A stretch of 64,000 nt of DNA from Sneathiella aquimaris (GTDB taxonomy: Bacteria > Pseudomonadota > Alphaproteobacteria > Sneathiellales > Sneathiellaceae), in assembly GCF_026409565.1 (NCBI RefSeq), contig NZ_CP112881.1, positions 682,001-746,000 on the forward strand, given 5' to 3'. Numbering within the stretch: position 1 is the first letter of the stretch; every line of letters starts with the position of its first letter. Below the pieces are notes generated by a model. That model searched no databases and had not been told where the DNA came from. It saw nothing but the letters and a program-made list of their open reading frames with translations. Position numbers and translations under genes: made by a program. Positions 5,139 to 20,710 of the stretch are shown piece after piece.

Positions 5139-7559
5139 ATGACCAGAATTCAAAATAAGAAACCGTTCCGTTCACTCTTGACCTCTTTACTGGTTGGCGT
5201 GGCAATGTTTGCACTTGCTGCTTGCGACTCTCCGGAGGAAAAAGCGCAATCTCACTATGAAAACGGGAAGCAGCTTTTCAAAGAAGAGAATTATGTCAAA
5301 GCGGGACTGGAGTTCCGCAATGCATTGCAATTAAACGGTAATCTCGCTGATGCCTGGTACTATCTCGGGCTTGTTGAGGAAAAAGAAGGTAAATTCCGGG
5401 AATATGCCGGTGACCTTTACAAGACGATCGAGCTGGATTCCCAGCATGTCAACGCCCATGTCCGCCTGGCAAAGATATTACTTTTCTCTGGTCGTATGGA
5501 GGAAGCAGAAACCAAAAGTGAACTGGTGTTACGCCTTGCCCCGGAAAAAGCGGATGTCTGGTCATTAAAGGCAGCAGTTCTGTTCCGTCAGAAAAAAACC
5601 GATGAGGCTGTTACTGCCGCTCGTAAGGCTTTGGAAATTGAGCCCGGGCATGTTGAAGCGACGCTGATTATTGCGGTGAACGCGATTACGGAAAATCGTC
5701 TGGATGACGCACTAGCAATTATCGACAAAAGCCTTGAGCTGAACAATGACAATATCCCTCTGCAATTGGCCAAGATGCAGGCGTTTGAGAAAAAAGGAGA
5801 TGCCGCTGGTATCGAGACCGTTTTTCGGGATCTAATTCGGGCAAATCCGGATGAAGTTAACTTTCGAAATAACCTTACCCGTTTTTATCTGAAGCAGGGA
5901 GACACGAAAAAAGCGGAAGCAGAAATCCGGGCGATTGCGGAAGAAAATCCAGAAGACGAAACGGCGAAGCTGAACATTGTTCGGTATATGCGCTCCGTTG
6001 GGGGGAGTGAGCTGGCCCGTAAAGAACTGGAGAAAATGATTGCTGAAGAGCCAGACAATTATATTTTGCAATTTGCATTGGCAGAATTATTGCTTCAGGA
6101 ACGTGATGTTGACGGGGCAAAAGCGCTGTTGCGAAACGTCATTGATAAAGCGGGTTTAGAGGATGACGGACTAAGTGGCCGTACGAAAATGGCCGAAATC
6201 CTGATGCGTGAAGGGGATCAGGCTGGCTCTATGGTGTTGGTTGAAGAGGTTCTGGCTAAAGACAATCGCAATGTGGTGGCGTTGATGTTGCGGGCGGCGA
6301 TGCGGATCGATAATGGGGACGTGGAAAATGCCATCACTGATTTGCGATCTGCCCTTCGGGAACAGCCTGACTCCGTCAAAGCAACATTGTTACTCGCGCG
6401 CGGGCATGAGTTGACAGGCGCAATTGAACTTGCCGAAGACAGGTTTGATGCTGCCTATAAAATGGCGAACGCGGCGCCTCAGGCGTCTTTACAATATGCG
6501 CAGTTCTTGAACAGGCGGACAGAATATGACCGCGCGGAAGAAATTCTTGAACGGGCGCTGAAAAGGACACCGAATAACCAGCCATTGCTGACCAATCTTG
6601 CTCAGGTGAAATTGATCAGAAAGGATTGGAAGGGGGCTGAAGAAATCGCAGAACGTCTTCGGTCAATTAATAAGGAGAATATTCTTTCCGATCAGATTTT
6701 GGCTCGCTCTTTTGCGGGACAGAATGATATGGAAAAAAGTCTGGAAGCATTTGAAAAAGCCCATAAGAATGCGCCTAATGGAGTGAATACTCTTGTTGCT
6801 TTGGTGCGGCTGCATATTAATCAGGGCAATATAGAAAAAGCGTTGTCGACGTTGAAAGAAGTGATTGCGGCGTCTCCTGAAAATGTTCCTGCTCGGCTTT
6901 TATACGCCCAGACTTTGAACGTCTCGGGGGATGAGGCGGCGGCCATTGCAGAATACAAAAAAGTTATTGCCGAAAATCCAAAAGCACAATCAGCCCACTA
7001 CATTCTTTTTACGCATTATATGCGCAAAAAGGACGTGGAGACTGCGAAATCTGTGCTTGAAGAGGGTTTAAAAGAACTGCCAGAAAGTTTCCCTCTGCAG
7101 ATGGCGCAGGCCGGTATGTTTGAGCAGGCCCAACAATATGAAGACGCGATCGCGGTTTATGAGGATGTTTTGAAACGGCTTCCTAATTCTGATGTTGTGG
7201 TGAACAATCTTGCGAGTTTGATCTCTACTGTTTATTCAGATGAAGCCAATTTACGACGGGCCTATTCCTATGCGAAGCGCTTTAGAAGCTCTCCTGTTCC
7301 GCACTTTAAGGACACGTTGGGCTGGATTCACTACCAACTGGGCGAATATGAGCTTGCCACTCCATTACTCGAAGATGCTGTAAAAGGGCTGCCGAATTTT
7401 GCGTTGATGCGCTACCATTTAGGCATGTCCTACAAGGCCGCCGGTAACAAAGGGCGCGCAATCGAAGAATTGAGCAAAGCGTTGGAGTTGACACAAGGAA
7501 ACTCGATTCCGGGAATGGAAGATGTCGACGCGCAATTGAAATCATTGAAAGCGTCCTGA
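5139..7559 (+). CDS. prsT: PrsT-like TPR lipoprotein of the exosortase/EPS system
   Basis: An 806-residue TPR protein. The N-terminus has a basic start, a hydrophobic segment and a lipobox LAAC with Cys29, so it is a lipoprotein. The rest is almost entirely tandem TPR units of about 34 residues, from the repeat beginning AQSHYENGKQLFKEENYVKA to the last one near residue 775. Length and architecture fit the XrtA/PEP-CTERM-associated TPR protein PrsT, which marks these loci. It likely scaffolds envelope components of polysaccharide export or cargo sorting. ATG 5139 is preceded by a purine-rich AGGGCAC. The next gene, an AAA ATPase, follows after 113 bases that contain a hairpin. Exact molecular function is not established for this family. 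Confidence 0.88.
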   Translation: MTRIQNKKPFRSLLTSLLVGVAMFALAACDSPEEKAQSHYENGKQLFKEENYVKAGLEFRNALQLNGNLADAWYYLGLVEEKEGKFREYAGDLYKTIELDSQHVNAHVRLAKILLFSGRMEEAETKSELVLRLAPEKADVWSLKAAVLFRQKKTDEAVTAARKALEIEPGHVEATLIIAVNAITENRLDDALAIIDKSLELNNDNIPLQLAKMQAFEKKGDAAGIETVFRDLIRANPDEVNFRNNLTRFYLKQGDTKKAEAEIRAIAEENPEDETAKLNIVRYMRSVGGSELARKELEKMIAEEPDNYILQFALAELLLQERDVDGAKALLRNVIDKAGLEDDGLSGRTKMAEILMREGDQAGSMVLVEEVLAKDNRNVVALMLRAAMRIDNGDVENAITDLRSALREQPDSVKATLLLARGHELTGAIELAEDRFDAAYKMANAAPQASLQYAQFLNRRTEYDRAEEILERALKRTPNNQPLLTNLAQVKLIRKDWKGAEEIAERLRSINKENILSDQILARSFAGQNDMEKSLEAFEKAHKNAPNGVNTLVALVRLHINQGNIEKALSTLKEVIAASPENVPARLLYAQTLNVSGDEAAAIAEYKKVIAENPKAQSAHYILFTHYMRKKDVETAKSVLEEGLKELPESFPLQMAQAGMFEQAQQYEDAIAVYEDVLKRLPNSDVVVNNLASLISTVYSDEANLRRAYSYAKRFRSSPVPHFKDTLGWIHYQLGEYELATPLLEDAVKGLPNFALMRYHLGMSYKAAGNKGRAIEELSKALELTQGNSIPGMEDVDAQLKSLKAS

Positions 7560-7672: not shown

Positions 7673-8626
7673 ATGTATGAAGAGTTTTATGGGCTGGCAC
7701 AGAAGCCGTTTTCTATTCAGCCCGATCCCGATTATATCTATTGGGGCCGGACCCATTCGCTTGCCTATGCGATGCTCGAATATGGCGTGATGAACCATGC
7801 CGGTTTTACGGTTATCTCCGGAGAGATCGGATGCGGCAAGACAACTCTCATTCGACATTTACTTAATCGCTTGGATCAGGAATACAAAGTTGGGTTGGTA
7901 TCCAACATTCAAGATGGAAACCTGTTGGAATGGGTTCTTTCGGCATTTGACCAACCGTATGAGAATAAATCTCATGTGGCCCTTCACGATCAACTGCAAA
8001 AATTCCTAATTGATCAATATGCCCATGGCAAAAGAACAATCCTGATTGTGGATGAGGCCCAAAATCTGGGTCCTAAGCTGCTTGAGCAACTGCGGTTGCT
8101 TTCCAACATAAATGCGGATTGCGATCAGCTTTTACAGCTTATTCTCGTCGGACAGCCGCAGCTCAAGACCTTACTGCAAGCACCAGAGCTAACACAGTTT
8201 GCACAACGTGTAGCGTCAGATTTCCATCTGGTGCCGCTGACACAAGAGGATGTCAAAGAGTATATTAATCACCGTTTGGAAGTTGCGGGTCGGCACGAGC
8301 CCCTTTTTACGGATCTTGCTTGCGAGCGGATCTTTGAAGCCAGCCGTGGTATCCCTCGTATTATTAATATTCTCAGTGACACGAGCCTGGTTTATGGCTT
8401 CGCTCAAATGGCGGATCAAATTGATAGCGCGATTGTGGATGAGGTGATTGCAGACAAGAAAGAGCATGGGGTTTTCAAGATGGGTGAAGAACAACCTGCG
8501 CCTCCTCCTCCTAATTCGTCGATCAGTCCCAATGAACTGAGCGTAAACGATGATGGCGATGGGCCTGCCCTTGTTATTCGGGACAAAGACCTCGCCAAAT
8601 TATTGCTATCAAAATTACAGAACTGA
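7673..8626 (+). CDS. ExeA-like AAA ATPase of the exosortase/EPS locus
   Basis: A 317-residue P-loop ATPase that begins MYEEFYGLAQKPFSIQPDP, the typical start of the PEP-CTERM-locus ExeA-like ATPases. Walker A is GEIGCGKTT near residue 50, Walker B is TILIVDEAQNL near residue 127, and a sensor-like ILVGQPQLKTLL follows. RGIPRIINILSD is the conserved second-domain motif of the family. The tail after about residue 270 is proline/serine-rich and probably flexible. There is no membrane segment, in contrast to true ExeA. It sits in the same orientation as prsT. The role (energising assembly or secretion) is inferred from locus conservation only. Confidence 0.88.
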   Translation: MYEEFYGLAQKPFSIQPDPDYIYWGRTHSLAYAMLEYGVMNHAGFTVISGEIGCGKTTLIRHLLNRLDQEYKVGLVSNIQDGNLLEWVLSAFDQPYENKSHVALHDQLQKFLIDQYAHGKRTILIVDEAQNLGPKLLEQLRLLSNINADCDQLLQLILVGQPQLKTLLQAPELTQFAQRVASDFHLVPLTQEDVKEYINHRLEVAGRHEPLFTDLACERIFEASRGIPRIINILSDTSLVYGFAQMADQIDSAIVDEVIADKKEHGVFKMGEEQPAPPPPNSSISPNELSVNDDGDGPALVIRDKDLAKLLLSKLQN

Positions 8627-8892: not shown

Positions 8893-10383
8893 TTAGAAAT
8901 TTTTCCTGAAAGACACGGATAGGGCGTTTTCAGTGAGGTCTTCGCCCACTTTGTTGTCTCGATTGAGGAAATTGTACGAAACGTTCCCTGTAAAGCCTCT
9001 GCCGAAATCGTAGGAATAGGTGGCACCTACTTCATAGCTTATTTCGCCAGAGCCAGATGTGCGCGTGTCCAGCGTTTCTGAGTATCCCGTTGTCAGGGAC
9101 ACGTCCGCCCGAGGCGTTAAGCGACGGCCGAAATTGCCGCTGATAGACAGGGTTGTATCGTCTGTGTTGTCACTCAGGAATTCCCGCTCAATATAATTTC
9201 CTGACAACCCGTAATTATTACGACCGCGTGTGCGCGTCCAGCGGACCTCAAGGTTATTGGACTTGGTGACGTCATCGACGTAATCTGTGACTGAAAAATT
9301 TGGTTTTATTAGATCACCATTGTCATCCAGCAGGCGTGTGTTGGCCAAGCTTTGGTCAGCCGTCTGTACGCTTACCCGGTATGTAGCTGACAGCTGATCT
9401 GCGCTGGTTGGGGCGTATTGAACGTCCATATCGAAAACGGGCTCACCAAAACGGTAGCCAATTTGAAAACTGGCGTCTGTTCTGCTGCTTGGATGCAGGC
9501 GTATCCCTGCGCCTCCAAAAACGCCACTAATTTCTGCGTTGTCGATATTATCGGCATCAAAATCGTCATAGCCGACAGTCCCAATAATCGAAAAGAGGCG
9601 GTTAATTGGAAGCTGAGCTGTTCCGATGCTGGAAAAATGCTCGAAATTGTCGCCATCATCAGATTCTGATTTAATGATGCCCGTATCTGCACTCCAGCTT
9701 AGGCGGGCAAACCGCCTGCCACTGTCCAGCGTTAATCGAAATTCATTGCTGTTACGATCGGGCGTGTCCGTCGTGGACGCCCCAACATCAGGCTCTTTAA
9801 AAATGGTTTCCGAATAACTGTAGCGGGCGACACCCGTGGCCCAGCCACCAAAGTCCTGTACATAATAAGGGCTGATCTGACCATTAAATACCTGGGTGCG
9901 ATCACTGGCTTGCGTTCGGTCAGTTGCAGAGGTACTTCCCGTTTCGCCCAGATTTTCTTCGGTAAACGTAACCCGGGCGTCAACGAAAAAACTCTCGTCG
10001 ATCAACTCAATGCTTCCGCTTCCCAAAAAGTTTTGCCGATATCCGTCAAGATCGTGATTGCGAGCGTAGTAATCCTGAGAAATACTGTAAGAAGTGGTCA
10101 ATTCTGTTCTTCGTGTTTCTCCAGAAAGGGTAAAGCCCAGATCAACAGAGGTAATGAAATCACTCTCTTTATTCGTTGTTGAGCTTCTTGCATTGTCTGT
10201 AAACTGTTCGCTAACCCCAACAAAAGGTGAGAAATCCCATTCGCCAGCCAACGCTTGCGAAAAACTTGCTCCATACACCCCTACCGTCATCATCAAATAA
10301 TATGATAACCGTTTTTTGAGCCGTGCTGTCGGCATTCTATAGGGGTATCCCTTTATTCGGGCATTTTTCACAATCGAACCCAC
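8893..10383 (-). CDS. Outer-membrane beta-barrel protein, PEP-CTERM system (TIGR03016-like)
   Basis: A 496-residue protein with a signal peptide ending near SQALA-GEWDF, followed by long amphipathic strands rich in aromatic, Asp, Asn and Thr residues (for example SYSISQDYYARNHDLDGYRQ). The final residue is Phe in a strand ending SVSFRKNF, the usual signal for outer-membrane barrel insertion. The composition fits the PEP-CTERM-associated beta-barrel family found beside PrsT and exosortase genes, proposed to act at the outer membrane in EPS export. The frame opens at GTG 10383, but ATG 10335 (MPTARLKKRLS) gives a more ordinary signal peptide; neither has a strong Shine-Dalgarno site. It is followed on the same strand, upstream, by the Wza-like gene at 34 bases. 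Confidence 0.8.
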   Translation of the reverse strand: MGSIVKNARIKGYPYRMPTARLKKRLSYYLMMTVGVYGASFSQALAGEWDFSPFVGVSEQFTDNARSSTTNKESDFITSVDLGFTLSGETRRTELTTSYSISQDYYARNHDLDGYRQNFLGSGSIELIDESFFVDARVTFTEENLGETGSTSATDRTQASDRTQVFNGQISPYYVQDFGGWATGVARYSYSETIFKEPDVGASTTDTPDRNSNEFRLTLDSGRRFARLSWSADTGIIKSESDDGDNFEHFSSIGTAQLPINRLFSIIGTVGYDDFDADNIDNAEISGVFGGAGIRLHPSSRTDASFQIGYRFGEPVFDMDVQYAPTSADQLSATYRVSVQTADQSLANTRLLDDNGDLIKPNFSVTDYVDDVTKSNNLEVRWTRTRGRNNYGLSGNYIEREFLSDNTDDTTLSISGNFGRRLTPRADVSLTTGYSETLDTRTSGSGEISYEVGATYSYDFGRGFTGNVSYNFLNRDNKVGEDLTENALSVSFRKNF

Positions 10384-10416: not shown

Positions 10417-11049
10417 CTAGAACCAGCTTTCAGGAATGATAATAATATCACCGGGGAGCAGGGGCACGTTCGCGGAGACATCGCCATCCAGCAAAAGGTC
10501 ATCGAGACGAACAGTGTAAGATTTTTCAGCACCGTTTTCTACACGAACAATAACCGAACGATTGCCCGCGGCAAACTCTGTCATGCCACCGACAGCAATC
10601 ATGGCATCCAGCAATGTCATGCGGTCATTAAAAGAAATCGCCATAGGCTGGACAGCTTGACCAACGATGCGAACCTGCTGGTTATACGGGCCGGAAAATC
10701 TTGTGACTGACACAGTCACAACAGGGTCGACAATGAACTTTTCGAGCTTAGTTGCGATATCGGCAGCCAAAACAGAAGGTGTTTTTTCAGACGCCTGAAC
10801 ATCACCAATCAGCGGCGTTGAAATTTTTCCGTCTGGCCGAACTGGCACAGTCACGGACAAGTCCGGATTTTGCCAAACAAAAATATTAAGCTCATCCCGG
10901 GCGCCAATTACATAGTCTGGTGCCGTTGTCAGTTTTTCTGGTGCGGCCCCTGATAGTTCAGGCGGGGTTGCGCAGGCAGATAAGACGGCTGCAACACTAG
11001 CGACAAGGACCCAGGTTGCCAGTCTCTTGATTGAATTACTTTTGAACAC
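10417..11049 (-). CDS. Wza-like polysaccharide export lipoprotein
   Basis: About 210 residues from GTG 11049, chosen because GGGAG lies six bases upstream and the resulting N-terminus is a normal lipoprotein signal with lipobox LSAC (Cys26). The frame runs further upstream but codes for an implausible hydrophilic leader. The mature protein has the Poly_export domain (YVIGARDELNIFVWQNPDLS ... GKISTPLIGDV), then a SLBB-like domain (VRIVGQAVQP ... LLDAMIAVGG) and ends LLPGDIIIIPESWF. It is shorter than E. coli Wza and lacks its C-terminal outer-membrane helix, as is usual for the PEP-CTERM form; the neighbouring beta-barrel may supply the outer-membrane part. It should act in periplasmic/outer-membrane translocation of EPS. 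Confidence 0.88.
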   Translation of the reverse strand: MFKSNSIKRLATWVLVASVAAVLSACATPPELSGAAPEKLTTAPDYVIGARDELNIFVWQNPDLSVTVPVRPDGKISTPLIGDVQASEKTPSVLAADIATKLEKFIVDPVVTVSVTRFSGPYNQQVRIVGQAVQPMAISFNDRMTLLDAMIAVGGMTEFAAGNRSVIVRVENGAEKSYTVRLDDLLLDGDVSANVPLLPGDIIIIPESWF

Positions 11050-11323
11050 GAGTGTCTCCCAAGGCCTTAAAAATTCCAAATTTGCGATGCATCTTAAATC
11101 TATATTCATATAGTGGCCATTATATTTGAGTTTCCGAGCAGAATAAAACACATAACGATGCCGTCGAGCGTTATTATTTGGAATAACGTTGTTAAAAGGC
11201 AACGTTTGTTTGAAAAAGAAGGTCTTTTGGTAGGGGTTTGACATGATGAGAATATGCTCTTTTCTTGTAAGTGGATTTTCGAGAGCCTCATTGCCAGTGT
11301 CCACGGTTTTAGACAGGTAAAAA

Positions 11324-13432
11324 TTGAAACAGAATCAAACATCCCTCCTTCAGGAAACCCTTAGCCGGTGTAAACGGGTATTTGTCATTGTTGCCTTGTT
11401 CGGCCTTGGCATAAATTTACTTATGCTGACAGCGCCATTGTTTATGATGCAGGTCTTCGATCGGGTCATAACAAGTCGAAATACGGATACACTTTTCATG
11501 CTTGTGCTGGTCGCGATCATCGCGCTTGTCACAATGTCGGCGCTGGAATCTGTTCGGACATTCGTGCTGGTTCGGCTAAGCAACTGGCTTGATGTGCGGA
11601 TTGGTAGCCTTGCTTTAAAGTCGAGTATTCTTTCGCCGCTTAAAAAGGGGGAAACGCCAAGCGTTCAGGGATTGCGCGATCTCAGTACCTTTCGCGGATT
11701 TCTGACAGGCGCCGGCATTTTTCCGATTTTGGATGCGCCTTTTGCGCCGGTTTTCCTGGGTATCATGTTTTTGCTTCACCCTATGCTGGGGGGCATCGCA
11801 TTGGCGGGCGCGGGCATTCTGTTTTTGCTCGCACTGTTTAATGAAATTGCGACACGCCGATTATTAAATCAGTCAGGCCAGCAGTCTATTCTGGCGATGG
11901 GACAGGCCGAAGCCGCAGCCCGCAATTCTGATGTCATCGAGGCGATGGGGATGATGCCCAATCTCATCGCGCGGTGGGAAAAAGCCAATAGTAAGGCTTT
12001 GGATATGCAGGCACGCGCCAGTGATCGCGGTGGTATCATTTCGTCCCTGTCGAAATTCTTCCGGACTACACTTCAAATCGCAGTCTCAAGTGCGGGGGCC
12101 TGGCTTGTCATCGCCGGCGATATGTCCCCGGGTGCAATGATCGCGAGTTCAATCATTATGGGGCGCGCCCTCGCCCCAGTGGAGCAGGCTATTGGTGCCT
12201 GGAAGGGTTTTTTGGGTGCCCGTTCTGCCTATGCGCGGTTAAAGGCGCGAATTGGGATGGACACGGAGGCTGAGAAAACCATGCCCCTGCCCAGACCCAG
12301 CGGCGCCATTGATGTGGAAGCGGTAAGTTATGCCCATGCTGGCAGTGCAGAACCTGTTCTAAGAAATGTCAGCTTTAAAATTAACCCGGGCGAAGTGGTG
12401 GGTCTGATCGGTCCAACTGCAGCCGGAAAATCGACATTGGCGCGGATACTGGTTGGAAACTTGATGCCCCGTAGCGGTCATGCCCGGCTTGATAATATGG
12501 ACGTGGCTGAATGGCCCGCCGATGACAGGGGCCAATATATTGGGTATCTGCCGCAGGATATTGAGTTGTTCGCAGGAACAATTCGGGAAAATATCGCGCG
12601 AATGTCGGATGGTGATCCTGACGAAGTGATTGCCGCGGCAGAAAAGGCAGGGGTTCATGAAATGATCCTGCGCATGGAAAAAGGATATGATACCCAAATC
12701 GGGGATGGAGGAGCAGCGTTGTCCGGGGGACAAAGGCAACGTATTGCGCTTGCAAGAGCCATCTATGGAAATCCTGCTTTTATGGTTTTGGATGAACCCA
12801 ATGCCAGCCTTGACAGTGTCGGTGAAAACGCATTGATGCAGGCTATGCAGACGTTACGCGATCAGGGTATGACCATTATCGTGATTGCACATCGCCCGAA
12901 TATATTGAAACATGTTGATAAAATCGTCGTTCTTCGCAACGGAATAGTGGATGACTTTGGCTGGCGTGATGAAATACTCGAAAAACTCCAGGGCCCCTCT
13001 CATCGTGCCCTGACTGGTCCGGCAGGCGAAACGGATCCTGCGCCCCGCCGGTTAAAATCTGATGCTGTCTCTGGCGATCCCGACGAGACTGGAAATGGGC
13101 AGGTCGCCGAACTTCATCAGTTTGAAGACAAGGGGCGAGCGGCACGTATCGCAAAACTCCAGGCGATGAAACGGCGGGCGGATGTGCGGGAAAAGGAAGC
13201 CCTTGCCAAAAGCACCCAACGTCCCGAGCCGGCAGAAGACGGATCCAGGCCTGAAGTGAGTGATGCCCCCGCGCCACAGGCTGCGATTGCGCCGATTTCA
13301 GATAAAGTCCGTGCGGAAATACTGTCGCTTGCGGACCGGAGCCTTACTGAAACAGAAGTGCAGGAAATCTACACATTGTATTCGGCGGGCGACAAACAAA
13401 AAATGTTGGAAAAATTAAAAGGTGTTGGCTGA
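11324..13432 (+). CDS. Type I secretion ABC transporter (PrtD/PrsD-like) with long C-terminal extension
   Basis: A 702-residue exporter with a TTG start at 11324 (AGG about seven bases upstream). Residues ~15-300 form the six-helix membrane domain; the nucleotide-binding domain has Walker A GPTAAGKST (363-371), signature LSGGQ (466-470), Walker B FMVLDE (486-491) and the switch His523. This is the PrtD/PrsD type that exports proteins with C-terminal uncleaved signals across both membranes together with a HlyD-type adaptor and TolC. From about residue 556 it continues with ~145 extra residues: a charged, proline-containing linker with a helical RIAKLQAMKRRADVREKEAL stretch and a final helical module (LTETEVQEIYTLYSAGDKQK). 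Ordinary PrtD proteins end near 570-580 residues. The adaptor gene follows directly; no outer-membrane TolC is present. Confidence 0.88.
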   Translation: MKQNQTSLLQETLSRCKRVFVIVALFGLGINLLMLTAPLFMMQVFDRVITSRNTDTLFMLVLVAIIALVTMSALESVRTFVLVRLSNWLDVRIGSLALKSSILSPLKKGETPSVQGLRDLSTFRGFLTGAGIFPILDAPFAPVFLGIMFLLHPMLGGIALAGAGILFLLALFNEIATRRLLNQSGQQSILAMGQAEAAARNSDVIEAMGMMPNLIARWEKANSKALDMQARASDRGGIISSLSKFFRTTLQIAVSSAGAWLVIAGDMSPGAMIASSIIMGRALAPVEQAIGAWKGFLGARSAYARLKARIGMDTEAEKTMPLPRPSGAIDVEAVSYAHAGSAEPVLRNVSFKINPGEVVGLIGPTAAGKSTLARILVGNLMPRSGHARLDNMDVAEWPADDRGQYIGYLPQDIELFAGTIRENIARMSDGDPDEVIAAAEKAGVHEMILRMEKGYDTQIGDGGAALSGGQRQRIALARAIYGNPAFMVLDEPNASLDSVGENALMQAMQTLRDQGMTIIVIAHRPNILKHVDKIVVLRNGIVDDFGWRDEILEKLQGPSHRALTGPAGETDPAPRRLKSDAVSGDPDETGNGQVAELHQFEDKGRAARIAKLQAMKRRADVREKEALAKSTQRPEPAEDGSRPEVSDAPAPQAAIAPISDKVRAEILSLADRSLTETEVQEIYTLYSAGDKQKMLEKLKGVG

Positions 13433-13453: not shown

Positions 13454-14776
13454 GTGACCTTATTGATGAATAATGCAGAACAGACGAAAGATCAGATGGG
13501 TGTCGGCAAGCCTATACTGGCAGGTGTAGTAATCCTTCTGCTTTTTTTTGGTGGATTTATGGGATGGGCCGCATTTGCTCCGCTAGATAGCGCGGCGCTG
13601 GCATCTGGCGTCATTAGCGTTGAAGGCAACCGAAAGACCATTCAACATTTCGAAGGTGGCATTGTTCAGGATATTCTGGTCAAAGATGGTGATCTGGTTC
13701 AGAAAAACCAGGTCCTGTTGACATTGGACGAGACGCAGGCGGAGGCTTCGCTAAAGCTGATTCAAGGGCGTAAGATGGTGGCATTGGCCGAGATGGCCCG
13801 TCTTACCGCAGAGCGAGATAATCTGGAGAATATTACGTTTCCAAAATGGCTCGAAGATCGCCGTTCCAATGAAAATGTTGCCAAGACGATGGATGGACAG
13901 GTGAGTATCTTCAACGCAAGGCGTCTTGCTCGGAAGGGTCAAATAACGATCCTTGAGCAAAAAATTGCGCAGCTCGAAGAAGAAATGAAGGGTTTGCAAG
14001 GCCAGATACGGGCGGGCGATACGCAGTTGAAACTCATCCGGGAAGAATTGGCAGATGTGCAACAACTGGTCGATAAAAAGCTGGCAAAACGGAGCCGGTT
14101 AAGGGCTTTGCAGAGAACAGCGTCAGAGTTAGCCGGGAACCGCGGTCAGAATGTGGCTCGAATTGCACAATCCAAGCAGGCAATAGGCGAGATTAGACTT
14201 CAGATTACAGAAATTCAAAATGCGGTCCTCAATGAAGCGGTTGCAGAGTTGAAAAATGTCCAATCCATGCTGTTTGATCTTGAAGAGCAGGAGCGGGCGT
14301 CTATCGACGTGATGGGTAGAACCGAGGTTCGCGCACCGAATACCGGCCTTGTCGTCAATCTGACAGTGTTTACCAAAGGGGCCGTTATTTCTTCCGGACA
14401 GCCACTAATGGATATCGTGCCCGTGGATCAGAAGTTAATAGTAGAAGCACAGGTTGATCCAACAGACATTGATATTGTGCATGTTGGAGCTACCGCTCAT
14501 ATCCGCTTTCCCGCCTTCAGCCAAAGGACGTCCAAACCGGTTGAAGGTACAATTATCGGGGTGTCGGCGGACAGTATCCAAAACGAGCGGACCGGGGCGT
14601 TTTACTATCAGGCCCTCGTTCGGATCGATAACATTGAGCAAAGCAATCTATCGATGGATCAGCTTCGTCCTGGGATGCAGGCTGATGTCATGATTGCAAC
14701 CGGTGAACGGACTGCGCTGGATTATTTCCTGAACCCTATTCTGCTTAGTTTTAACCGGGCGATGACAGAACAATAA
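13454..14776 (+). CDS. HlyD-family type I secretion adaptor (PrtE/PrsE-like)
   Basis: A 440-residue membrane-fusion protein. A single transmembrane helix (ILAGVVILLLFFGGFMGWAA, residues ~21-40) is followed by a split lipoyl/barrel-sandwich domain (GNRKTIQHFEGGIVQDILV ... RAPNTGLVVNL), a long alpha-helical coiled-coil hairpin (~100-275) and a beta-barrel with the family motif DIDIVHVGATAHIRFPAF. It bridges the ABC transporter to a TolC-like outer-membrane channel. Start GTG 13454 or ATG 13466; neither has an obvious ribosome site, and only four residues differ. It is 21 bases downstream of the ABC gene, so they form an operon. The PhzF gene converges on it. Confidence 0.88.
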   Translation: MTLLMNNAEQTKDQMGVGKPILAGVVILLLFFGGFMGWAAFAPLDSAALASGVISVEGNRKTIQHFEGGIVQDILVKDGDLVQKNQVLLTLDETQAEASLKLIQGRKMVALAEMARLTAERDNLENITFPKWLEDRRSNENVAKTMDGQVSIFNARRLARKGQITILEQKIAQLEEEMKGLQGQIRAGDTQLKLIREELADVQQLVDKKLAKRSRLRALQRTASELAGNRGQNVARIAQSKQAIGEIRLQITEIQNAVLNEAVAELKNVQSMLFDLEEQERASIDVMGRTEVRAPNTGLVVNLTVFTKGAVISSGQPLMDIVPVDQKLIVEAQVDPTDIDIVHVGATAHIRFPAFSQRTSKPVEGTIIGVSADSIQNERTGAFYYQALVRIDNIEQSNLSMDQLRPGMQADVMIATGERTALDYFLNPILLSFNRAMTEQ

Positions 14777-14789
14777 AGTAAGGCACGGT

Positions 14790-15626
14790 TTATTCAATAA
14801 CACGGGTTTCGCCCGACACTGTTACCGATTGCCCTTTGTCTTTATCGATACGGACTTGAAGAAGTGAGGGGCTGCCCATGTCAACGCCCTGATGAACGGT
14901 TATGGCTGTTTCTTTTTTGATAAAACTGACGTCCCTTAAATAGCCACCCAAAGCCGCGGCGGCGGCACCTGTTGCAGGGTCTTCGTAAACCCCGCCAAAC
15001 GCAAAGGGGTTTCGGCTATGGAAAACGGTGTCACTTTCACAATAGAAAAGGTTCAACGTTGTCAAATCGCGTTCAATCATGATGTTTTTAATAATATCAA
15101 AATTATAGGACATGGTTTTGAGTTGTTCGTGGTCTGCGAGGCCGATCATGAGATGGCGTGCTCCGGCCCCTGCCACAGCAAGAGGGAAACGAGCGTCCAT
15201 ATCCGCGGGTGTGATCCTAAAGTTTTCCAACACCGTTTTAAACTCATCGAACGAGACCAATGTCGACCAGGTCGGCGGACTATTTAAGGAGGCCGACCAT
15301 TCGCCGGTCTTTGATTTGAAAGCTTCAACCGAGATCTGTGCATCATTTAGATGAAGAAGATAGGAGCCCGCACCATAACGCCGTCCCAATTCGGCGGCAC
15401 TGGCGATGGTTGCGTGACCGCAAAAGGCAACCTCCTGTTCGGGGGCAAAATACCGAATGCGCCATCCCTCTGCCAGAGGTTCAAGAAAGGCGGTTTCCGA
15501 ATAACCGATTTCCGCCGCTATTTTTTGCATTTCCATAGCGTCGGGCAGTGTTTCAAACATTGCCACTCCTGCCGGGTTGCCGCCATTATTGTGGGAGGAG
15601 AATGCTGCAATCCGGGTGACATCCAT
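14790..15626 (-). CDS. PhzF-family isomerase/epimerase-like protein
   Basis: About 278 residues from ATG 15626, preferred over the upstream TTG because AGGGAG lies six bases before it. The PhzF fold is supported by MDVTRIAAFSSHNNGGNPAG, the catalytic-Glu region IGYSETAF (Glu ~45), AFCGHATIASAAE and the second-domain DPATGAAAAALGGYL. Family members include phenazine biosynthesis isomerase PhzF and many cytoplasmic enzymes of unknown substrate; phenazine production is not implied. It follows the exosortase gene by 11 bases on the same strand and probably shares its transcript, an odd partner for an envelope locus. It is convergent with the HlyD-like gene, with a 13-base gap. Confidence 0.85.
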   Translation of the reverse strand: MDVTRIAAFSSHNNGGNPAGVAMFETLPDAMEMQKIAAEIGYSETAFLEPLAEGWRIRYFAPEQEVAFCGHATIASAAELGRRYGAGSYLLHLNDAQISVEAFKSKTGEWSASLNSPPTWSTLVSFDEFKTVLENFRITPADMDARFPLAVAGAGARHLMIGLADHEQLKTMSYNFDIIKNIMIERDLTTLNLFYCESDTVFHSRNPFAFGGVYEDPATGAAAAALGGYLRDVSFIKKETAITVHQGVDMGSPSLLQVRIDKDKGQSVTVSGETRVIE

Positions 15627-15637
15627 TATTTTCTCCC

Positions 15638-17191
15638 TCAAGAATCAGGTATATATTTCGGCAGAACCGGGAATAAACTTTTCGAAAACTCTTCCAGGCG
15701 TTTATCCGCGACAATCTCAGACATCGTTGATGAGATCGGCATTGATAGTCGCACGAGCGCACCATCTGTTCGAGAGGAGGTTAATCCGCCTAGTAAAAGA
15801 TTGAATTTTGCAGCATATTCGTTGGCAATAAATTTTCCACGTTGCTGGAACCAGTAATAGACGAGAAGCTTTTGTTCCCCTTTGCCAATCAAAACCCGAT
15901 TAACAGGGACAGGGCTGCCATCCTTCATTAATTCGATTGTCTGAAGGTCTCGGATTTCCCAGCCTCCGGACGGAATGCAGACCCGCGGAGAGTGCGGTGT
16001 GCGCCCTGCTGATTGTTGATCATAATAACCAATAAAGAGTGAAATGGCCGGAAGGTTTGCTTCCCGGTAATGGCCCAGAAAATAATCACTCATTTGCAGA
16101 ACTTCTGCTTCGATGCCCGGGATTTGATCTTCTTCGGCTATCAGGTCTCCGATCTTCAAGGGGAAACTTGCGAAGCTGGTGCGCTCAGGAATGGTTGGCT
16201 CAAGGTTTCTCAGGTAAATCGTAAGCGGGACCAATGCAATACATAAAATAACAGCGCCATAAATAGGGGCCGTTAGTTTTGGTTCTTCAGAAGGCTTTCT
16301 GATATTGCGAACATTCAGAACACCATTTCCGACCGTTGATTTTTCCTTTTTTGTCAGGGTCAGCCAGCACGCTCCCAGAACGAGGACAAAAGAAATCAGG
16401 AAGAAGACCCATCCTTCAAACAGATGGAAAAAGCCTTCAGAAACGCCCATATCCGTAAATTCAACGAAAGCGCCGGTCAGGAAAATTCGAACACTGTTCA
16501 TAACGATCGATATGGCGGCGGCAAGAACAAGAAAAAGTCCTCTTTTCCAAAGTGCAATATCGAACAGCATGCCAGAAAGAGCCCCCAACCCTACCATAGG
16601 GTAGAGGTAGCGCAACCCGCTGCACGCCTCGGCGACTTCCAATTTCATTTCACCCAGATCAATGATATTGCCATCTTGAAAGACGGTCACCCCAATGGCA
16701 CGGAGTGAAAAGACACTGACATCTGTTGAAAACAGCTGAAGTCCATAGGAAAGATTTGAGTTCAGGAAGCTGGGGGGCGGAACAACGAATGGCAGAAGAA
16801 TAAGGGCTGGAAAAACATAGCGGGCGTAATTAAAGCCGCCAAATGTGAGAAATAAACCAAACAAAAGCGCCAGAATACTCAAGTGACGGGCATTTTGAAT
16901 GCCAGCCTTGATTGCCAGGCCATAAATGACAATCGAGAAGAAAACAATTGCCACCCCTACGAAGCGACCTTTGTTATCCGGCGTATTTAATAACTCCTTA
17001 CGTTTCCACAAAAGAAACAAAGAAACAACCAGCATTAGAGGTCCGTGACTGAACTCTTCCAATTCCATCCACGAAGTCCAAAGCAATTCCGCATCTGGAG
17101 CGTAAAAGGCGAGAGCCAGAAGCACAGTAAGTGCCAACAGAATTTTGGGTATATCAAACCGCATTGAGCTCGCTTCCACAATATTTGTCAC
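15638..17191 (-). CDS. Exosortase fused to EpsI domain (XrtA/XrtD class)
   Basis: A 517-residue two-domain protein. Residues ~10-280 are the multi-pass exosortase with the conserved triad: Cys190 in AEACSGLRYLYP, Arg235 in MNSVRIF and His256 in GFFHLFEGW. After a further membrane helix, residues ~330-517 are a periplasmic EpsI domain with the motif HSPRVCIPSGGW (His400, Cys405). Exosortases cleave and re-anchor proteins carrying PEP-CTERM-like tails at the inner membrane. The locus genes resemble the XrtA type, but the fused EpsI and the VPLPPA tail of the nearby cargo also fit the XrtD type. GTG 17191 or ATG 17164 may be the start. PhzF follows downstream; the tyrosine kinase gene lies 90 bases upstream. 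Confidence 0.9.
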   Translation of the reverse strand: MTNIVEASSMRFDIPKILLALTVLLALAFYAPDAELLWTSWMELEEFSHGPLMLVVSLFLLWKRKELLNTPDNKGRFVGVAIVFFSIVIYGLAIKAGIQNARHLSILALLFGLFLTFGGFNYARYVFPALILLPFVVPPPSFLNSNLSYGLQLFSTDVSVFSLRAIGVTVFQDGNIIDLGEMKLEVAEACSGLRYLYPMVGLGALSGMLFDIALWKRGLFLVLAAAISIVMNSVRIFLTGAFVEFTDMGVSEGFFHLFEGWVFFLISFVLVLGACWLTLTKKEKSTVGNGVLNVRNIRKPSEEPKLTAPIYGAVILCIALVPLTIYLRNLEPTIPERTSFASFPLKIGDLIAEEDQIPGIEAEVLQMSDYFLGHYREANLPAISLFIGYYDQQSAGRTPHSPRVCIPSGGWEIRDLQTIELMKDGSPVPVNRVLIGKGEQKLLVYYWFQQRGKFIANEYAAKFNLLLGGLTSSRTDGALVRLSMPISSTMSEIVADKRLEEFSKSLFPVLPKYIPDS

Positions 17192-17281: not shown

Positions 17282-18091
17282 TTAATAGTAGTGAGATTGT
17301 TTTTCGTGAGATTTATTTAAGACAACACCAATCAAATTAGACGATTGCAGTTGTCGTCTACTTTCTTTGACCTCGGCAGGCGTTGACTCGTCACTTGCCA
17401 CAATCAAAAGAACGCAATCAACCTGCGGGAGAAACGCCATCGCGTCGTCAGCTGCCATGAGCGGGGGAAGGTCAAAAATGATAACCCGGCTTTCATATCG
17501 ATCTCTTAAATCTGTCACCATGGATTTTATTCGGCGAGACGTAAGCGTTTCCGCTGCATTTCTGACAGGCGTTGTGTTTGGTAAAACAACCAATCTTGGC
17601 AGGCCCGGATTTACCAGTATGTCTTTTATTTCAGCCTTGTTTTCCAGAAAATCGAATAGGGACTTACCGGGAGGTAGCCCTAGATATTGAGATATGCGCG
17701 GTTTGCGAAGGTCAAAATCAACGATGAGGGCTGTATGCTCGGTTTGTTTGGCGATGCTCATGGCAAGGTTAAGCGCAACAACTGTTTTCCCGCATTCCGG
17801 TGTCGGGCTGGTGATTGCCAGCGTGCGCCAGTTGTTTTCTTTCATCTTGGTCAGGACCTGAGTACGCAGAATATCGAAGGCAACGGAGTCTGGATCTTCA
17901 CTGTCAAAGGTGACGATCCGGTTGTTCTCAAGATGCTTGGTGTCCAATTGGACAATCTTTGTTTCCTGATACGTTATCTCATCGTTGTTGAAGTCATCGC
18001 GATGAATATCGACCTGGGCCCGACTTTTGATTTGATCTTTCAGGCCTTGTGAATTTCGGGCCTTTGAAATTGCTTCTTTGATGCGTTCCAT
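17282..18091 (-). CDS. CpsD/CapB-type tyrosine autokinase of EPS locus
   Basis: A 269-residue cytoplasmic BY-kinase domain without its own membrane part. Walker A is ITSPTPECGKT (~93-103), Walker A' VDFDLRKP (124-131), Walker B VIIFDLPP (203-210). The protein ends HYY, a minimal C-terminal tyrosine cluster for autophosphorylation. FDILRTQVLTKMKENNWRTL is the usual segment before Walker A. In these systems the kinase works with a separate Wzz-like membrane protein to regulate polymerisation and export of the polysaccharide; that partner is the gene immediately upstream, nine bases away. The Walker A has Pro-Glu-Cys instead of the enterobacterial Pro-Gly-Glu; similar variants occur in alphaproteobacterial relatives, so activity is still expected. 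Confidence 0.87.
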   Translation of the reverse strand: MERIKEAISKARNSQGLKDQIKSRAQVDIHRDDFNNDEITYQETKIVQLDTKHLENNRIVTFDSEDPDSVAFDILRTQVLTKMKENNWRTLAITSPTPECGKTVVALNLAMSIAKQTEHTALIVDFDLRKPRISQYLGLPPGKSLFDFLENKAEIKDILVNPGLPRLVVLPNTTPVRNAAETLTSRRIKSMVTDLRDRYESRVIIFDLPPLMAADDAMAFLPQVDCVLLIVASDESTPAEVKESRRQLQSSNLIGVVLNKSHEKQSHYY

Positions 18092-18100
18092 TGCGGCCTC

Positions 18101-19762
18101 TTAAAATGGCAAAAGGTTAAGTTTTTCAAGATAAACCCAAACGCGATAAAACAGTACGTCTAAAGGTTTGTACAAAACATGTATGGCGGCCAAGACACCA
18201 AGTCCCATCAATGTGGGAACCAGCAGGACCATGCCATATCGATATCGTTTTTTCTGAACGTCCCGATGGGTCTGAATATAAGGGATTGAAACCAGAGGAG
18301 GGCGCTTTAACAGCGTCTCCAATTCAGACGCTGTTCTTATTCGCTTGTCTACCAGTTCGACCAATAGTGCTGTACCAATCCCGCTCGCGATTGCCAAGAA
18401 GCCGCCGATACCAAATATCTTTAGTCTATCAGGCCAAACGGGCTCAGTCGGTGTAACTGGAGGTTCTAAAAGGATAAAACGCTCAGCCTTTTTTTCTTCT
18501 TCCAGGTTTTGGGCGAGTTGGGCTTTGCCTTGTTTCGCCTGAAGCTCGGTATATTTTTCAAAGATTTCGCGGTGATTACGAGCGAGCGTGATGAGCTCTC
18601 TTTCCACTTCAGGGGTTTTCAGAACGCGTTCTTCTATTTCCGATGCTTTGGCTCTTAATTCCGCCAAGTCCTTTTCAAATTTTTGAATACTTGCTGTGTT
18701 ACTTGATATCCGAATTTGTAGTCTGTCCAGCAACCGCTGAATTTTGGGATTCGTGGATTTAGCAGTTTTTCGATCTATGTCATTGTCTTCTTGACTGGCG
18801 GAGAGTTCATCTTCAAGTTTCTTTTCAAGCATCCCAATCCGACGTTTCAGTGCTTTAATATCCGGATGTGCGTCGGTCAATTTTACCGACGCTGTTGTAA
18901 GAGCATCCTTAAGAAGATTTAGTTCTTTTTCTGTGTCGCTGACGACTGATTGTGAGTCAGCTGAGGGGTCTTCTCCCGCTTCAGCGCTCGCCATTTCAAC
19001 GTCCAGATATCGGCGCTCTTCTCTCAAATTGATCAATTGTTGTTCTAAAGCTTTGATTTCAGCTTGAATTCTTTCCAGACGACTAAGGCGCAGATTCAGG
19101 TGCTCTGGTAAATTATCTCTATGTAATTGCTTGTAGTTTGAGATGGCGGCTTCAGCGATTATCATTTGCTCTTTTAGTTTCTGAGCCTCTTGTTCCAGGA
19201 ATTCTGTAGTTTCACTTGCTCTTTCCGTGCGGGTTTTAACGTTTTCGCTCAGAAATAATGTTACCAGTTCGTTTGCGACTTTTGTGGCGGTTTGAGGATT
19301 CTCATGCTGAAAAGAGAGACGGAAGGCAATGGTTGTTGCTCCTCGTCGTCCTTGACCATTTTCAGCGGTTATGACGTCAACACTAACCAAGCGTTGCATT
19401 TCCTCAATTAATTTGGTGACCGATAGCCTTTTCCGCTCTTCAGCAAAAACATTATATTTGTCAACAATTCTGAGTAAGTTTGTACGTGTCATAACCCGTT
19501 GTTTTATTACGGTGATGCGCTGATTAGGATCTGACGTAACAGTAGATTGAACAAACTCGACGGGAATCTGTTGAGACTCGACAAGGACCGTGGCATAGGA
19601 TTCGTACCTTGGTGGCAGTAGAAAGGCGATTGCCACAACGATGCTTCCTGCAATTACCACAGGGATTAGAAAGTAAAAGAAGCGACGCTTTGCAATTGCT
19701 AGAATTTGGTTTAGATCTAGCGGAGAAGCTTGTTCTTCTTGATCGTAAGTATCAGTTGTCAT
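18101..19762 (-). CDS. Wzz-like chain-length determinant (PEP-CTERM system)
   Basis: About 553 residues from ATG 19762 (MTTDTYDQEEQ); the frame extends 25 codons upstream but that part looks untranslated. The protein has an N-terminal transmembrane helix (FFYFLIPVVIAGSIVVAIAF), a Wzz domain (RYESYATVLVESQQIPVEFV), a very long periplasmic coiled-coil region (~200-410, rich in Glu, Leu, Lys), the P-rich motif LEPPVTPTEPVWPDRLKI and the second transmembrane helix (FGIGGFLAIASGIGTALLVE). An extra hydrophobic C-terminal helix (GMVLLVPTLMGLGVLAAIHV) follows. This matches the PEP-CTERM-type chain-length determinant, which controls EPS polymer size with the kinase encoded next. No strong ribosome site is visible. 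Confidence 0.87.
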   Translation of the reverse strand: MTTDTYDQEEQASPLDLNQILAIAKRRFFYFLIPVVIAGSIVVAIAFLLPPRYESYATVLVESQQIPVEFVQSTVTSDPNQRITVIKQRVMTRTNLLRIVDKYNVFAEERKRLSVTKLIEEMQRLVSVDVITAENGQGRRGATTIAFRLSFQHENPQTATKVANELVTLFLSENVKTRTERASETTEFLEQEAQKLKEQMIIAEAAISNYKQLHRDNLPEHLNLRLSRLERIQAEIKALEQQLINLREERRYLDVEMASAEAGEDPSADSQSVVSDTEKELNLLKDALTTASVKLTDAHPDIKALKRRIGMLEKKLEDELSASQEDNDIDRKTAKSTNPKIQRLLDRLQIRISSNTASIQKFEKDLAELRAKASEIEERVLKTPEVERELITLARNHREIFEKYTELQAKQGKAQLAQNLEEEKKAERFILLEPPVTPTEPVWPDRLKIFGIGGFLAIASGIGTALLVELVDKRIRTASELETLLKRPPLVSIPYIQTHRDVQKKRYRYGMVLLVPTLMGLGVLAAIHVLYKPLDVLFYRVWVYLEKLNLLPF

Positions 19763-20004
19763 GCCTGATTTTCTAACTGTTATTAATGGTTGTTTTTTTG
19801 AAGCACTCAATGTTTCGATATAGCGTCTATAACGCAATCAATAACCAAAACAAAACGACTATCAGCCTAATGACCCCACATAAAATAACTTTATGAATAA
19901 TCAGAGTTTTTAGCCGAAAACGAATAAACGTAATAACGCACAATACACGTTCTCAAATTAAACCCGCAATAGTAAAGAAAAAGTGCACAATCAGGCTGAA
20001 AAAT
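19763..20004. other. Gene-free gap upstream of chain-length gene
   Basis: Together with the terminator this forms a 318-base gap between the cargo gene stop and the chain-length start. It is AT-rich with several A-runs and should contain the promoter of the minus-strand Wzz-kinase-exosortase operon. I could not settle on convincing -35/-10 boxes, and I see no RNA gene. Confidence 0.4.
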
Positions 20005-20080: not shown

Positions 20081-20710
20081 TTAAGATTGTTTTCTTCTGC
20101 GGCCAATCCACCCAAGTCCTGCAAGGGCAGCACCAAATAGCAGGAGGGCAGGTGGGAGCGGAACGGCACTCACAGTGATCGCTTCAAGATAGAATTGAGT
20201 GTCCACGTATGAAAACTCAAAAACTGTACCTGTCAGACCTGCGAACAAGCCCCAGTCGGCAGGATCAAGAGACATGCCACCCAGGATTGGGGAGCCATCG
20301 ATTGTGAGGGCAAGGACGCCACCGACGAGACCGGCTGTACCGTGAACACTGTCAGCAAAGGCGATTGAATCGATCGTTACGATTTTATTGAATGTGAGTT
20401 CCAAAGTTTCGTCTGTCGTTACATTGTCGTCACTTGAATCAACACATTGAAGGGTTCCTGTTAGCCCTGTACTGCAGACGCCCATTCCGGCGCTTCCGGA
20501 ATCCAAATATGCATAGGCTGGTGCGCCTGATAAATAACCTCTTGCTTCAACTGTGACACCACCATCACTGTGAATCAAAGGTTGTCCGCCCATCTCGCCT
20601 GGAGGGGCATCAGCGATTGCGGCATAGTCAAATGTGGCAGCATTGGCCATTCCAATGCTAAATAAGCCGGCGAACGTACTTATGAGTGTTAATCTTAAAA
20701 ATTTTTTCAT
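20081..20710 (-). CDS. Secreted protein with VPLPPA-type (PEP-CTERM-like) sorting signal
   Basis: A 209-residue secreted protein. It has a signal peptide ending GMANA-ATFDY and a C-terminal tripartite sorting tail: VPLPPA (183-188), a hydrophobic helix (LLLFGAALAGLGWIG) and a basic end RRRKQS. The tail is the VPLPA-CTERM variant of PEP-CTERM. The body is small and beta-rich with two Cys residues (79 and 89) near each other, similar to many PEP-CTERM cargo proteins of unknown function. It is the only exosortase substrate in the window and sits between the Wzz operon and the WcaJ-like gene, with its own terminator and a 400-base upstream region, so it is an independent transcript. ATG 20710 is a clear start. 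Confidence 0.88.
   Translation of the reverse strand: MKKFLRLTLISTFAGLFSIGMANAATFDYAAIADAPPGEMGGQPLIHSDGGVTVEARGYLSGAPAYAYLDSGSAGMGVCSTGLTGTLQCVDSSDDNVTTDETLELTFNKIVTIDSIAFADSVHGTAGLVGGVLALTIDGSPILGGMSLDPADWGLFAGLTGTVFEFSYVDTQFYLEAITVSAVPLPPALLLFGAALAGLGWIGRRRKQS

Follow-up and report, generated by a model that had tools for sequence, protein, structure and literature searches.

A conserved C-terminal module on the PrtD-type exporter of an exosortase XrtD locus in Sneathiella

What does a type I secretion pump do with 147 residues that follow its nucleotide-binding domain? The question is raised by a 702-residue ABC exporter encoded at positions 11324-13432 (forward strand) of a 64,000-nucleotide stretch of the Sneathiella aquimaris genome (contig NZ_CP112881.1 of RefSeq assembly GCF_026409565.1, positions 682,001 to 746,000; hereafter the window). 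A preliminary description of this DNA had proposed that the nucleotide-binding domain ends near residue 555 and is followed by a charged linker and a separate helical module that usual PrtD-like proteins lack. In the literature searched by full text we found no description of a PrtD-type exporter with such a C-terminal extension, and as far as sampled the tail is restricted to the genus. With a conserved, removable module, a candidate cargo and a defined locus in a genus that includes named species, the system offers a simple way to ask how a pump recruits its partner, and it suits the question of whether protein and polymer export are coordinated.

The exporter core and its tail

Judged by its sequence, the protein is a PrtD-type type I secretion ABC exporter and a full-length member of TIGR01842 (type_I_sec_PrtD); its residues 13-555 score 698.7 bits (cut-off 510.15) across model positions 1-544 of 544. 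PF00664 and PF00005 (ABC membrane and ATPase domains) both score over their cut-offs, Walker A GPTAAGKS and LSGGQ can be read in the sequence, and phmmer aligns residues 2-555 to the solved Aquifex aeolicus PrtD (AaPrtD, 5l22). Reading that alignment also reveals FxT (F126-T128) and W293, features described for AaPrtD in PMC8277102. The family match begins at residue 13, and an N-terminal C39-like domain is absent. At the other end it stops exactly at residue 555, as anticipated in the preliminary description, which is where the nucleotide-binding domain closes (residues 320-555, 12281-12988, forward; pLDDT 80-96 in most 10-residue blocks). Unlike AaPrtD, the Sneathiella exporter then continues for 147 residues (556-702), encoded by 12989-13429 plus the stop codon; the earlier figure of about 145 residues at 12990-13432 was close in length and one base out of frame at its start.

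The tail is predicted to consist of a disordered linker and a compact three-helix module, which agrees with the linker and separate helical module proposed before. In a full-length AF2 model built from a 25-sequence alignment, the variable linker (residues 556-655, 12989-13288, forward) is mostly disordered, with pLDDT below 50 at 563-570, 578-600 and 628-652. A basic helix with the motif RAARIAKLQAMKRR is predicted within it at low confidence (residues 600-628, 13121-13207, forward; pLDDT blocks 51-66), and motifs resembling it are seen by eye in the type-1 orthologues (the subtypes are defined below). Membrane binding by this helix was considered and dropped, its amphipathicity being no higher than that of its own shuffles in seven of seven type-1 sequences. 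The terminal module (residues 656-702, 13289-13429, forward) is modelled confidently, with helices at 660-669, 676-687 and 691-699 and pLDDT of 92, 91, 93 and 88 in the blocks within 661-700. Prediction of the tail alone from 14 sequences, a check that the preliminary description had suggested, reproduced these helices with less confidence (blocks 75-91).

Tails that carry the module span 119-195 residues and are strongly divergent apart from their end, where the last ~45 residues can be aligned over the 18 rows used. Two subtypes (type 1 and type 2) are distinguished, and positions I18, L21, L26, I34 and G41 (query-row numbering) are invariant. For the codon comparison we used 14 orthologues, 4 of type 1 and 10 of type 2. 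Among the type-2 sequences the median dN/dS is 0.041 for the module (20 of 45 pairs usable), 0.032 for the TMD (37/45) and 0.022 for the NBD (34/45), against a rough value of 0.259 for the poorly aligned linker (16/45), in which mean amino acid identity is 0.41. Saturation affects 5 or 6 of the 6 type-1 pairs, for which identity alone can be given: 0.63 in the module and 0.26 in the linker. Between the subtypes identity is 0.73 in the NBD, 0.32 in the module and 0.14 in the linker, the last again a rough value from a poor alignment. The terminal module is thus under purifying selection. Because 19 of the 24 genus genomes retain the tail, and because dN/dS is low in the module relative to the linker, the tail is not a product of chance or an artefact of read-through. 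The preliminary description had also allowed for an unconserved low-complexity tail; this applies to the linker in so far as it is unconserved, but not to the terminal ~45 residues.

In Pfam, NCBIfam, the PDB and Foldseek the module matched neither a family nor a fold for which a partner is known. Scans of the tail against Pfam and NCBIfam gave no match, and scans of 18 modules gave nothing reliable: the weak matches were to GAE_BBS1 (6/18 rows, best E 0.04) and HTH_38 (2/18, best E 0.017), with the C39 family not among them. Foldseek against the PDB produced no module match at E <= 0.001; its rows include a CUE domain at E 8.5 and Z 2.4. A second structural comparison over 63 chains reached Z values up to 4.0, to a primase domain, which is uninformative for a small helical bundle, and the best PDB sequence match (E 0.0085) is a designed protein. 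A UBA/CUE-like or HTH-like reading would be based on pattern only and was not adopted.

Distribution of the module and its locus

A profile of the module finds one place only in its own genome at E <= 10. Across the genus it matches strongly (E <= 4.1e-24) in 19 of 24 genomes, at one place each, and in 19/19 carriers this place is the C-terminus of the exporter encoded in the exosortase XrtD/polysaccharide locus. Second matches within the genus, at E 0.0117 and worse, were disregarded as weak. An order-level search returned the same 19 carriers among 25 genomes, the module not being found in the one genome searched from the order's other genus, and among 385 genomes of the class strong matches occur only in the five Sneathiella genomes sampled. 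Matches in six class genomes at E 7e-4 to 8e-3 were judged to be chance, the best-matching ORFs lacking LSGGQ, and a plasmid search with the tail gave three records, at E 0.1 or worse and within a transaminase-family gene, which were rejected. As far as sampled, the module therefore appears restricted to Sneathiella. In Sneathiella glossodoripedis JCM 23214 the exporter (L043:9698-12090) lies in two frames, split near query residue 153, which is either a sequencing error or a broken gene.

PrtD proteins themselves are frequent in the class (at least 112/385 genomes at E <= 1e-150). We read tails in 50 rows among the PrtD matches listed for the class, namely the best 30 loci and the 20 other rows with the longest open frames (>=663; genus rows and L162 set aside), as well as at 11 loci of genus paralogues and at a further two in the S. 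aquimaris genome. The best 30 loci have tails of 15-62 residues and the 11 genus paralogue loci tails of 10-48, one truncated by a contig end. Among the 20 long-frame rows, five carry tails of 117-266 residues, mostly low-complexity and without the module. Altogether, the tail in the 69 other PrtD-like proteins compared is at most 62 residues in 60, 78-98 in 4 and 117-266 in 5, with a median of 26. A tail of this kind is hence not common to all PrtD proteins, the module being absent from all 69. Its view that usual PrtD-like proteins lack the extra part stands for the module and needs amending for long tails as such. Several PrtD-like paralogues of about 775-840 residues (G000:C1:3245612-3247243 and similar places in the genus) have short C-termini and are extended at the N-terminus by about 200-259 residues, which may form a C39-like domain.

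In a tree of 89 cores, with module leaves assigned by profile, the 20 leaves with the module, from 19 genomes with the query counted twice, form one clade with support 1.0 and no module-less member; the sister branch is weakly supported (0.193). Because the carriers form a single clade, the module was probably gained once.

The exporter belongs to an XrtD exosortase locus, in which TIGR04152 is accompanied by TIGR03027, TIGR03016 and TIGR02917, all over cut-off. Beside it lies its partner, a HlyD-type periplasmic adaptor (13454-14776, forward; TIGR01843, 378.4 bits, cut-off 208.65), followed by a gene at 14790-15641 (reverse) that we take to be PhzF-like and by exosortase XrtD of the VPLPA-CTERM type (15638-17191, reverse; TIGR04152, 448.4 bits, cut-off 400). 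In two other loci (L035 and L043) XrtD comes directly after HlyD, within about 30 bases. Next to XrtD are a tyrosine-kinase-like ATPase of the polysaccharide locus (17282-18091, reverse; TIGR03018, 170.5 bits, below the cut-off of 230.65), a polysaccharide chain-length protein (18101-19837, reverse; TIGR03007, 240.5 bits, below the cut-off of 278.85) and a small putative exosortase substrate (20081-20710, reverse), whose translation has a VPLPPALLLFGAALAGLGWIGRRRKQS C-terminus and ends VPLPPALLLFGAALAGLGW...RRRKQS. This protein is a likely XrtD substrate. On the other side of the exporter are a polysaccharide export protein of the XrtA/PEP-CTERM type (10417-11304, reverse; TIGR03027, 231.8 bits, cut-off 180), a PEP-CTERM-associated outer membrane protein (8893-10383, reverse; TIGR03016, 170.5 bits, cut-off 90.85), an ExeA-like ATPase (7673-8626, forward; TIGR03015, 284.2 bits, below the cut-off of 324.5) and the TPR protein PrsT (5139-7559, forward; TIGR02917, 317.3 bits, cut-off 312.2). 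The exporter's neighbours thus match models of the XrtA/PEP-CTERM system and resemble the PEP-CTERM/EpsH exosortase-exopolysaccharide clusters described in PMC1569441.

These neighbours are constant in the loci of the genus, contigs permitting, with PrsT, the ExeA-like ATPase and the outer membrane and export proteins on one side, and HlyD beside the exporter in every locus where the contig reaches. Of the 24 genus genomes, 16 have XrtD over its cut-off and one more has it split across two contigs. Counting any match, XrtD is present in 16/19 module genomes vs 1/5 others (Fisher p 0.0145 with each genome counted as independent); the three carriers that lack it are draft assemblies, 56-94% complete. 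In seven type-2 genomes XrtD and the exporter share a contig at a distance of ~20-32 kb. One such locus (L149/L150), in which the exporter block is rearranged, has XrtD and the kinase-like and chain-length genes ~20 kb away on the PrsT side, not adjoining HlyD, with ORFs between that resemble glycosyltransferases and other polysaccharide genes by eye. Outside the genus, XrtD-like matches occur in 7/385 class genomes, 5 of them over cut-off. Unlike the Sneathiella locus, six of these seven loci (G364 was left out) have no PrtD relative in the stretches examined, up to ~20 kb either side, contig permitting.

A candidate cargo in the same cluster

A 905-residue LamG protein of one type-2 locus, with a beta-helix-like front (NosD match far below cut-off), has relatives in 18/24 genus genomes, some via the LamG part only. 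In S. aquimaris the candidate is a protein of 2044 residues whose gene belongs to this polysaccharide cluster and lies about 11 kb ahead of the window start (G000:C1:664892-671044; L209:893-7045). It contains nine Cadherin_4, three Laminin_G_3 and three Beta_helix domains and two RTX stretches, and an N-terminal signal is not obvious by eye. Its C-terminus reads ...LVGVSLQDLDNSDFLI, ending ...LDNSDFLI, and an acidic-hydrophobic C-terminal signature is common to many of the relatives. These domain and C-terminal traits are traits of type I substrates. Among the 19 module genomes, a cargo relative lies on the exporter's contig within ~29 kb in 15, on another contig in 2 and is not found in 2; co-occurrence with the module gives a Fisher p of 0.0065, with the 24 genomes treated as independent although related.

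Some observations count against the assignment. S. aquimaris itself encodes two further PrtD-like pumps, and RTX repeats are present in five further open frames of its genome. In the G002 genome, a 91%-complete assembly in which 20 of the 37 kb of the XrtD contig were read, XrtD and a cargo-like gene are present and a module exporter was not found. The closest tail-less PrtD relatives among the matches listed (L045-L051) have HlyD and no match to the other locus genes in the stretches examined. By motif count, ORFs with RTX-type repeats adjoin the exporter in at least three of six of these loci (L045, L047 and L048), one of them ending ...DADDFLF, closely like the Sneathiella cargo end. Therefore the module seems not to be needed for the export of RTX cargo in general.

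What the module may do

Docking domains are commonly built as a small, conserved, folded end on a long variable tether. We propose, tentatively and with rather less than even confidence, that the exporter belongs to a type I system of the XrtD cluster that exports a giant cargo, and that its tail is a tethered docking domain whose likeliest partner is that cargo. The ABC exporter and HlyD adaptor would form a type I system recruited into the Sneathiella exosortase-XrtD polysaccharide cluster, with the outer-membrane channel assumed to be encoded elsewhere. The pump would probably move the cluster's own very large protein, which is calcium-binding and carbohydrate-binding-like in character. On its ~100 flexible residues the three-helix module could sweep the cytoplasm around the pump for a protein partner to capture, most likely the cargo or a factor attached to it, which would be held near the channel entrance. 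Cargo is our first choice because a cargo relative and HlyD accompany the exporter and because PrtD pumps are without a C39-like domain.

Polymer and polymer-binding protein might then arrive jointly at the surface, in the manner of Rhizobium PrsDE and the Rap proteins. Polysaccharide-binding proteins are among the substrates of PrsDE. The system serves the exopolysaccharide matrix and exports cadherin-like RTX and beta-helix proteins (PMC9298526 and PMC2275737). The Sneathiella system is similar to PrsDE with Rap/Ply in that an exporter and adaptor are linked to polysaccharide and the putative cargo has cadherin-like, LamG, beta-helix and RTX domains, and differs in that exporter, adaptor and putative cargo all lie in one exosortase XrtD cluster. 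An accessory domain on a type I exporter also has a parallel in HlyB, whose cytoplasmic, N-terminal C39-like domain (CLD) is predicted to aid cargo positioning (PMC8277102). Unlike the CLD, the Sneathiella module is at the opposite end of the chain, as a ~45-residue three-helix unit on a flexible tether, with no sequence relation found between the two.

Docking to the cargo has to be weighed against other jobs for the module. It might instead dock the exporter to the polysaccharide machinery, whether the kinase-like ATPase, the chain-length protein, the ExeA-like ATPase or another cytoplasmic part, and so co-place or time protein and polymer export. Such coupling fits the restriction to the locus about as well as cargo docking: the tail accompanies the XrtD/polysaccharide locus, the three carriers without XrtD are drafts, the tail-less relatives show no locus gene but HlyD in the stretches examined, and linkage on one contig is kept in the seven type-2 genomes despite the distance to XrtD. 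Linkage alone, however, is also expected from a function in cargo export, and a partner showing a corresponding change confined to the genus was not found. The six XrtD-like loci without the exporter retain the chain-length gene in 6/6, the kinase-like ATPase in 5/6 and the ExeA-like ATPase in 4/6, which neither proves nor excludes these proteins as partners. We consider docking to the machinery possible, if somewhat unlikely. A broader picture, in which the pump is coupled via the once-gained module to exosortase/polysaccharide export so that polymer and giant binding protein are exported at one place and time, strikes us as rather unlikely.

The module could also act on the pump itself, packing on the nucleotide-binding domains or on the module of the other protomer and tuning ATPase activity or the stability of the dimer. 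In favour are its place on the same polypeptide, a linker with enough length to fold back, and the shortness and invariant hydrophobic positions of the module. But a conserved module behind a linker of variable length and sequence is easier to reconcile with a remote partner than with a fixed site within the molecule, and we regard this role as rather unlikely. The fast evolution of the linker and the long low-complexity tails of other PrtD proteins would be compatible with a neutral add-on without function; presence of the module in all 19 genomes of its clade and its low dN/dS make that very improbable.

Cargo docking, the reading that we prefer, is itself weakened by the 15/19 carriers with a cargo relative near the exporter, fewer than all, and by the G002 genome. 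In two other PrtD proteins (L186 and L188) the tails are Pro/Ala-rich and 242-266 residues long; by eye they have the short motifs SPT.PGRL and FTPR..RKE in common at their ends, a further case of a tether whose terminus is conserved.
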